A stretch of DNA of 64,000 bases from Peptococcaceae bacterium SCADC1_2_3. Lineage in GTDB: Bacteria > Bacillota > Desulfotomaculia > Desulfotomaculales > Nap2-2B. The position numbers and the translations under genes were made by a program. Positions 8,842-47,139 of this stretch are shown here, one piece after another. The stretch spans positions 27,192-91,191 of the forward strand of contig JJNX02000002.1 in the NCBI GenBank assembly GCA_000681355.2, given 5' to 3'. Below the pieces are notes generated by a model that was not told where the DNA came from, did not search any database, and saw only the letters and a program-made list of their open reading frames with translations. The stretch's first letter is position 1; each line of letters starts with the position of its first letter.

Positions 8842-9821
8842 AACCTGAAATTTGGGTATTTATAGAAACGCGTTGGGGAAAAATAATGGCGGTAAGTATA
8901 GAATTAATTGGTCAAGCGCGTAAGTTGGCCTCACAAAACTATGAGGTGGCGGCTATTTTAACGGGAGATAACTTAAATCCTTTTTTAAGCCCGCTAATTA
9001 AAGCCGGGGCTGATAAAATCTACGTTTTTGCCCATCCCGCTTTAACCAGTTATCGCAGCGATTTGTATCCTAGCCTTATTGCCCAGTTAGCCAATAAATA
9101 CCAGCCAGCCGTGATTTTGGTAGGAGCTACCACTATAGGCCGGGACCTGGCCCCGGCAGTCGCAGCGCTATTATACACCGGTTGTGTAGCTGATTGTTGC
9201 CAATTATACTTTGACGCCAAGGGAGAATTGCTTCAAATTGTACCTGCTTTTGGTATCCATGCCATGGCTACCATTGTCACTCCCAATCACCGGCCTAAAA
9301 TAGCCACCGTACGTCCTGGTGTTTTTCCTAAACCAAAGGATGCTTCATGTACCGGCAAAATAGAATATTTATCCCTTAGCTTGCCTCCTGAAAGATTAAT
9401 TTTTCAAGAAGCTATACGCGAGACAATTTCTCCTTCCTCCTTAATTGAGGCAAGCGTTGTTGTTGCCGGAGGTAGCGGTATAGGCTGTCAAGAAGGGTGG
9501 GACATGTTGCAAGAACTAGCTATCCTCCTGCATGGCGCTTTAGGTGGCACCCGTCCTGCCGCAGATGATGGCTGGATTCCGGAAAGCCAAATGATTGGGC
9601 AAAGTGGGCAAATTATTCGCCCGGATTTATATATTGCGGTAGGTATTTCCGGAGATATGCAACATATGGTCGGGGCTCAAGATGCAAAAGTGATTGTGGC
9701 TATTAATAAAGATAAGCGGGCCCCTATTTTTCAACAAGCAGATTATGGTATAACAGGTGATTATAAAGTAGTTATACCCCTTATGCTTAATTTTATTAAA
9801 AATAAAGAGGAGGATTTTTAA
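8838..9821 (+). CDS. etfA: Electron transfer flavoprotein alpha subunit
   Basis: Large EtfAB subunit, 327 residues. The C-terminal FAD-binding domain is clear: GALGGTRPAADDGW, MIGQSGQII, YIAVGISGDMQHM and VIVAINKDKRAPIFQQADYGI. The N-terminal half has LVGATTIGRDLAPAVAALL. It is fused by overlap to etfB and followed two bases later by the dehydrogenase gene, so the three form one operon. No ferredoxin-like extension is present. Confidence 0.93.
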   Translation: MKPEIWVFIETRWGKIMAVSIELIGQARKLASQNYEVAAILTGDNLNPFLSPLIKAGADKIYVFAHPALTSYRSDLYPSLIAQLANKYQPAVILVGATTIGRDLAPAVAALLYTGCVADCCQLYFDAKGELLQIVPAFGIHAMATIVTPNHRPKIATVRPGVFPKPKDASCTGKIEYLSLSLPPERLIFQEAIRETISPSSLIEASVVVAGGSGIGCQEGWDMLQELAILLHGALGGTRPAADDGWIPESQMIGQSGQIIRPDLYIAVGISGDMQHMVGAQDAKVIVAINKDKRAPIFQQADYGITGDYKVVIPLMLNFIKNKEEDF

Positions 9822-18157: not shown

Positions 18158-18291
18158 GTAACTACTCAGGTTCATAGGGGCAAAGGCACAGAGGCACAAA
18201 GTTTTTTTGCCAGACTTGCAGATCTCTATACGTTTTCATTTCACTTTAGACCTTTGTGCTTTTGAACCTATGTGCCTACCTAAGTAGTTAC
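18158..18291. mobile_element. MITE-like element, copy 1
   Basis: A 134-bp non-coding element bounded by GTAACTACTCAGGT and its inverted copy ACCTAAGTAGTTAC (13 of 14 match). Inside each end are related AAAGGCACAGAGGCACAAAG / CTTTGTGCTTTTGAACC segments. A related, larger copy lies at 46849-47089. It sits just downstream of the NlpC/P60 gene. From 18357 to 18570 I see only AT-rich sequence. Confidence 0.75.
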
Positions 18292-46692: not shown

Positions 46693-46848
46693 GTTGTATG
46701 CCCCCTTTTTAATATAATTTCTTTAATTTCTTTTTCTGCCCGTTTGTTACTATCTAGTTTAATAATAACTTATTTTTTTTGTTTTTGTCCATAGTTTAAA
46801 CTAAAAATTACTCTCTTCCTGTTTTTTTAAATAGAATGTGTTATGATA

Positions 46849-47089
46849 ACTATTCAGGTAGGCACATAGGAGCAAAGGCACAGAGGTCCAAAGGGAAATA
46901 AAAACAGGTTGTTTAGGCTATAGGCTGTAGGCTGTTAGTCGCGCATAATTTTCTTCTACAGCCTAACTGCCTATAGGCTATCCACCTGAATAGAACGAAT
47001 GCTTAGCAGTTTAATCAGAAAGTTAAGCAGCAAGTAGGCAAAAAACTTTGTGCCTGTGTGCCTTTGCCCCTATGAACCTGAGTAGTTAC
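46849..47089. mobile_element. MITE-like element, copy 2, with 11-bp target duplication
   Basis: Starts ACTATTCAGGTAGGCACATA and ends CCTGAGTAGTTAC, matching the ends of the element at 18158. It is flanked by the direct repeat GTGTTATGATA at 46838-46848 and 47090-47100, which looks like a target duplication. Inside, ACCTGAATAG at 46984-46993 is another inverted end, so the element is composite. A hairpin (46914-46980) sits in the middle. Bases 46693-46837 are AT-rich with nothing else. Confidence 0.75.
46914..46980. repeat. Nested hairpin built from TAGGCT units
   Basis: TAGGCTATAGGCTGTAGGCT and its inverted counterpart ending GCCTATAGGCTA form an imperfect stem of about 25 bp around TCGCGCATAATTTTCTT. 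Confidence 0.65.
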
Positions 47090-47139
47090 GTGTTATGATA
47101 AATATGTTATTTTTTTTTGTTTAAGTAAGGATAAATGTT

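Follow-up and report, generated by a model that had tools for sequence, protein, structure and literature searches.

Some bacterial 23S rRNA genes, for example those of Coxiella burnetii and Leptospira, carry intervening sequences (IVSs) in which a gene for an S23p/IVP protein (family PF05635, solved relative 2gsc) is enclosed by inverted arms. In the Coxiella IVS, heptamer repeats adjoin the start codon (PMC4990558). Where 23S IVSs come from and how they spread has been described as unclear ever since they were discovered, and the standing hypotheses describe them either as a 'remnant of transposition' or as a 'mobile element whose ORF is needed for mobility' (PMC4990558). Two further kinds of described system bear on the locus considered here: MITEs and mobile insertion cassettes (MICs), the latter consisting of IS ends around a passenger gene (PMC3281130), and the IS66 family, which is marked by a GTAAGCG start and 8-bp repeats (PMC11946415). 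Searches of open-access papers brought up no earlier account of IVP or S23 as the passenger of a MITE or other mobile element.

The window analyzed here, a stretch of 64,000 nucleotides from Peptococcaceae bacterium SCADC1_2_3, contains a 244-bp element at 46846–47089, in the intergenic space between two divergent genes. Judged from sequence comparison, this element is very probably a MITE that arrived in one insertion with an 8-bp target duplication, and that derives by deletion from an IVP cassette mobilized in trans by IS66. Its left IS66-like end (46846–46859, plus strand) reads ATAACTATTCAGGT against the consensus GTAACTAYTCAGGT; the first base, G in nearly all other copies, is A here. 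The right end (47076–47089) reads GTAACTACTCAGGT on the minus strand. Inward of the left end lies a hairpin arm of degenerate short repeats (AGGCACATAGG...CACAGAGG; 46860–46893, plus strand), which shows 82% pairing with the inverted right arm (47046–47079, minus strand). The first-pass annotation had matched the ends to the inverted ends of another copy at 18158–18291, and rightly so: exact counterparts stand in inverted form at 18158 and 47089, and the number of such matches to be expected at random is 0. Around this second window copy, which is 134 bp long, the duplication has decayed to 6 of 8 matching positions (CTATAATC / CTATTATA). The copy encloses the first 12 codons of an outer-type IVP gene (MKTYRDLQVWQK; 18204–18239, minus strand), a 36-nt remnant that is found in other copies too.

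Both window copies belong to a family of roughly 60 transposase-less copies in the source genome, a 2.59-Mb draft of 259 contigs that is about 90% complete. The 13-nt end, with at most one mismatch, occurs there at 116 sites, versus 2 for a reversed control pattern. When some 60 copy-bearing loci were taken and their ends paired, 54 pairs resulted, spanning 85–396 bp, with interiors that hold only pieces of IVP genes. The copies are thus typical of MITEs in being multicopy and shorter than 600 bp, in having terminal inverted repeats and a target duplication of fixed length, and in encoding no transposase ORF. Neither the pairs nor the unpaired ends of the source genome include a long autonomous element with the full arms of the MITE, and an exact pattern scan of the named genomes gave no match.

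An identical 12-nt string, GTGTTATGATAA, stands at 46838–46849 and 47090–47101, and an 11-bp target duplication had been proposed for the element. That length is not supported by the statistics of the 54 pairs, in which exact flank matches were examined from 3 to 12 bp and showed no excess at any length other than 8 bp. Exact 8-bp flanks border 21 of the 54 copies and flanks agreeing at 7 or more of 8 positions border 29, compared with means of 0.42 and 1.2, respectively, for mispaired flanks; about 45% of copies have no recognizable duplication. The duplication in the window is accordingly GTGTTATG, at 46838–46845 on the left and 47090–47097 on the right. The match runs on for four more bases because the native target continues with ATAA and this copy also begins with ATAA, the start of the element elsewhere in the family being GTAA. 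Empty sites in related strains, the check suggested in the first-pass annotation, were found in three sister species of the same genus (G001, G002 and G003), each with a single, uninterrupted copy of the target. Together with the family-wide duplications, they back the original call of a MITE-like insertion with a target duplication.

The family ends (GTAACTAYTCAGG) and the 8-bp duplication are IS66-like. By inference from sequence, an IS66-family transposase acting in trans would cut or copy the element at its GTAACTAYTCAGG ends and insert it into AT-rich 8-bp targets; transposition itself is likewise deduced. The source genome contains two complete IS66 elements. Their ends are GTAAGTATTCAGTGAACC and GTAACCATTCAGTGAACC, and the 8-bp duplications around them (AAAAATTC and TATAGCTC) are exact; both start with GTAA, and about 9–12 of their first 12 bp are common to the MITE ends. 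Among relatives of the same order, IS66 elements have 12–13 bp identical to the GTAACTACTCAGG ends of the element. One of these, in G097 (L213:2386–4869), consists of an IS66 transposase between GTAACTGCTCAGGT and GTAACTACTCAGCC with an exact 8-bp duplication, TTTATAAT; in G019 (L212), GTAACTACTCAG ends surround one IS66 transposase without a duplication, and a 354-bp relative of the latter element (L217) has the same ends. Both transposases match PF03050. The window element encodes no such DDE transposase and so is not itself an IS66 member. Its family partly resembles IS66 (both the single-ORF ISBst12-like group and the elements that also carry DruA) in the GTAA start and the 8-bp duplication. 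It lacks a transposase, has only about 13 terminal bp in common with the IS66 elements of the order, and begins GTAACTA, whereas the classical IS66 terminal repeats, 20–30 bp long, begin GTAAGCG.

The main competing explanation assigns the ends to a different DDE transposase family with 8-bp duplications, and puts the match to IS66 down to coincidence or to a short motif common to both. Its appeal lies in the shortness of the common sequence (about 12–13 terminal bp), in the failure to find any IS66 bounded by exactly GTAACTACTCAGG in the source assembly, itself about 90% complete, and in the production of 8-bp duplications by other IS families as well. A 43-residue fragment query of the G019 L212 transposase type also found no match in that assembly. 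This explanation is nonetheless unlikely, given that the same order has IS66 elements, complete or nearly so, with GTAACTACTCAG / GTAACTRCTCAGGT at their borders, one of them with an exact 8-bp duplication, and that the IS66 elements of the source genome show the GTAA start and exact 8-bp duplications published as hallmarks of the family (PMC11946415). A further candidate IS66 end, L161 (G019:C38), has no adjoining transposase and was taken as a chance match. L158 had the look of a chance match within a gene and was set aside.

Both IS66 elements of the source genome (L131:912–4183 and L132:1979–4732) carry a second gene beside the transposase, which matches DruA (PF14236), a name known from the Druantia defence system. 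In G023, six contig ends (L179, L185, L190, L194, L196 and L198) carry a GTAACTACTCAGGCTAACG end, which suggests that a multicopy element, possibly IS66, breaks the assembly there.

The interior of the element can be traced to an IVP gene, a point beyond the reach of the first-pass annotation. Both window copies contain fragments of a gene for a four-helix-bundle protein (23S_rRNA_IVP family, PF05635), and 43 of the 54 paired copies match IVP gene DNA, compared with none of 54 after shuffling. A search with the TIGR02436 model returned 17 hits in the source genome, many of them inside copies, and 29 in Firmicutes bacterium UBA4049 (G009). In the window element, a degenerate start of the outer IVP gene was read by eye at 46898–46906 (plus strand), as ATA AAA ACA against ATG AAA ACA (M-K-T), on the basis of an alignment of composite copies and a comparison with gene-bearing copies. 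The last 15 codons of the same gene follow at 46993–47037 (plus strand), encoding E-R-M-L-S-S-L-I-R-K-L-S-S-K-stop (ERMLSSLIRKLSSK-stop); over 47 bp, this region and the gene end in G003 agree at 91% of positions (screening-grade E-value 1e-14; compare L226). The window element therefore very probably descends, by deletion, from a mobile IVP cassette, and the 'TAGGCTG' and CACAGAGG repeats, which are numerous in the source genome and its relatives, may find their explanation as remains of such cassettes. The parent cassette would have measured about 440–500 bp and comprised an IS66-like end, an arm of roughly 7-nt repeats, the IVP gene, a mirror-image arm and an end; internal deletion would then have removed the gene, leaving copies that became MITEs. 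A GxxExxY nuclease was also considered as cargo and was dropped, with 0 hits in the family.

Full-length cassettes of this kind occur in the relative UBA4049, where about ten units of some 500 bp have the order IS66-like end, 7-nt-repeat arm, IVP gene, arm and end, every unit being flanked by a matching 8-bp duplication. The assembly of this genome breaks inside the cassettes, and complete ones were read across contig breaks from the flanks at contig ends. When 20 left flanks were compared with 21 right flanks, 12 of the left ones found an exact match over an 8-mer (offset controls, 0 or 1), and ten of the 12 pairs join two contig ends. One join, through an overlap of 107 identical bases, gives a 501-bp cassette with an ORF of 117 codons preceded by AGGAGG; its 117-residue product matches the Pfam family 23S_rRNA_IVP (PF05635) with a screening-grade E-value of 2e-30, and its closest solved structure is 2gsc.

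Desulfobacterota, Ignavibacteria and Planctomycetes also have cassettes of the UBA4049 type. When named genomes were scanned, 361 relatives emerged, of which 80 were retained, at 68–96% protein identity (the UBA4049 copy itself reaching 100%); their hosts include Desulfobacterota, Verrucomicrobia, Lentisphaerae, Bacteroidetes, Nitrospira, Planctomycetes, Ignavibacteria and others. The end motif, at 11 or more of 13 positions, is present in 32 flank windows of these 80 loci, versus 1 of 143 control windows. Exact 8-bp duplications border three of the loci (L323, L334 and L303) and a 7-of-8 match borders a fourth (L341), while three others (L307, L367 and L300) have both ends and no duplication. 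The UBA4049 cassettes and the three with exact duplications thus combine IS ends, an intact passenger and a target duplication, as MICs do. The ORF is intact and ungapped at 75 of the 80 loci, and the median pairwise dN/dS, a screening-grade figure from unsaturated pairs only, is 0.09, which indicates strong purifying selection on the protein. Plasmids gave 22 IVP records, mostly cyanobacterial, with one at 60% identity or more and no obvious vehicle.

These data bear on a second alternative, namely that the family is an ordinary internally deleted IS66 MITE with simple-sequence junk as interior repeats and chance captures as IVP pieces. The interior of short copies does consist mostly of low-complexity repeats, and MITEs can pick up host DNA. 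Against this, the same gene lies at the same place between the arms in 43 of the 54 copies, whole cassettes with an intact gene and duplications exist in UBA4049 and in other phyla, and purifying selection on the gene is strong, so that junk with chance captures is very improbable. The cassette origin that is preferred here places the family among MITEs and MICs, with which it shares small size, IS-like ends, lack of a transposase, presence in multiple copies and a full-length form with one passenger gene; it differs from them in that the passenger is an IVP four-helix-bundle gene within hairpin arms built of repeats. The IVP gene family of split 23S rRNA is here found as the cargo of DNA cassettes that make clean target duplications, that in one genome are multicopy and look recently active, and whose proteins are about 70–96% identical across phyla.

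Inside the window element lies a second, TAGGCT-type unit (46905–46993, minus strand), truncated at both ends. The additional internal end and the TAGGCT hairpin reported there by the first-pass annotation are both present, the former as ACCTGAATAG at 46984–46993 and the latter as a stem of 46914–46928 with 46966–46980. With the same ends and arms as the full copies L091, L101, L114 and L117 and the UBA4049 cassettes, the unit is a second kind of IVP cassette that has lost its gene. The gene in full cassettes of this type, compared with a UBA4049 ORF, runs ATGCGTGAC...ATGCGTGACTAA; in the window it is reduced to a scar, ATGCGCGACTAA (M-R-D-stop; 46935–46946, minus strand), which probably arose by deletion between two 9-nt repeats. 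The same inner junctions recur in nine copies of the source genome (that of the window and eight others) over 221–245 bp, with 89–96% identity to the window copy, and a further full-length composite copy in the sister species G002 is 91% identical. The shared junctions imply that the composite formed a single time and was propagated whole. The proposed layering of at least two insertions consequently stands for the history of the family and is ruled out at the window site, where a single insertion took place. The inner unit lacks outer bases on both sides (GTAACTACT and TTAC), has no duplication of its own and joins the outer element through short matches (CA and ATAG). From the missing bases and the microhomology, its entry was probably by illegitimate recombination and not by clean transposition.

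The strong hairpin potential of the element (z −6.3), the slippage-like variation of the arms and the microhomology joins of the inner unit might recall a REP/BIME-like hairpin spread by replication slippage or recombination with direct repeats by chance, an idea made barely credible by the empty sites with a single target copy and by exact 8-bp duplications far above control with no exact-match excess at other lengths. No Rfam family matched the element above threshold, and identity as a structured RNA family was dropped.

The cassettes also invite comparison with 23S IVSs. An intact IVP gene lies inside a 23S rRNA gene of the source genome itself (L222:1475–1837; G000:C16, about 9115–9477), as a 147-residue open frame at the helix-45 position between GTCGGAGGTCA-type arms; when folded, the arms form a long hairpin, and the whole is a classic 23S intervening sequence. 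Among 26 IVP loci of the order that were measured in detail, whether resident in 23S or not, the gene sits between inverted arms, mostly of 7-nt periodicity. Local complementarity scores of the arms reach at least 30 in 21 of these 26 loci and in 0 controls (median 42.5 versus 14), and the same level is reached in 53 of 76 cross-phylum loci versus 0 of 68 controls. Copies inside 23S genes and free copies are thus built alike, with an IVP gene within inverted arms, an architecture which the full cassettes retain and the gene-less window copy does not. IVSs differ in residing in rRNA genes, with no recognized GTAAC ends or 8-bp duplication, whereas the window element is intergenic, outside any 23S helix. 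GTAAC ends were not seen on the 23S IVSs of the order, so that the IS66 route is shown for the cassette lineage only. The idea of TAGGCT-type IVP cassettes within 23S rRNA was also dropped, since 23S motifs are present at 0 of the 80 loci.

A broader reading, offered tentatively and at somewhat less than even odds, is that an IVP gene in a hairpin of 7-nt repeats is the mobile unit, that 23S IVSs are copies which landed in rRNA and are removed by RNase III, and that one lineage gained IS66-type ends. Those ends would have made the unit visible as a duplication-making transposon family that crosses phyla, and the IVP protein, being under selection, may assist persistence or movement. The spread of IVP, a question open for decades, is thus made testable through a named end, a candidate transposase and a 117-residue protein under selection, with rRNA intervening sequences as landed cassettes being the hypothesis at stake.

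Across the order, practically every gene among IVP loci L369–L397 lies between inverted arms of roughly 7-nt repeats, and the arm repeat sequence varies from locus to locus. In two species (L219, G006:C69; L220, G009:C76), a gene that by eye resembles a type III restriction-modification methylase (mod) is split at the same place by an IVP gene with TTGACAG arms. In the intergenic region that holds the window element, G002 has a separate insertion of about 75 bp (L134, about 1328–1402; G002:C20), absent from the others. The target of the window element, GTGTTATGAT (46838–46849 and 47090–47101), was not among the sites listed by a promoter scan; its sequence is similar to an extended −10 box lying upstream of queH (TGTTATAAT in G001), and the duplication leaves one copy of this −10-like target on the queH side.
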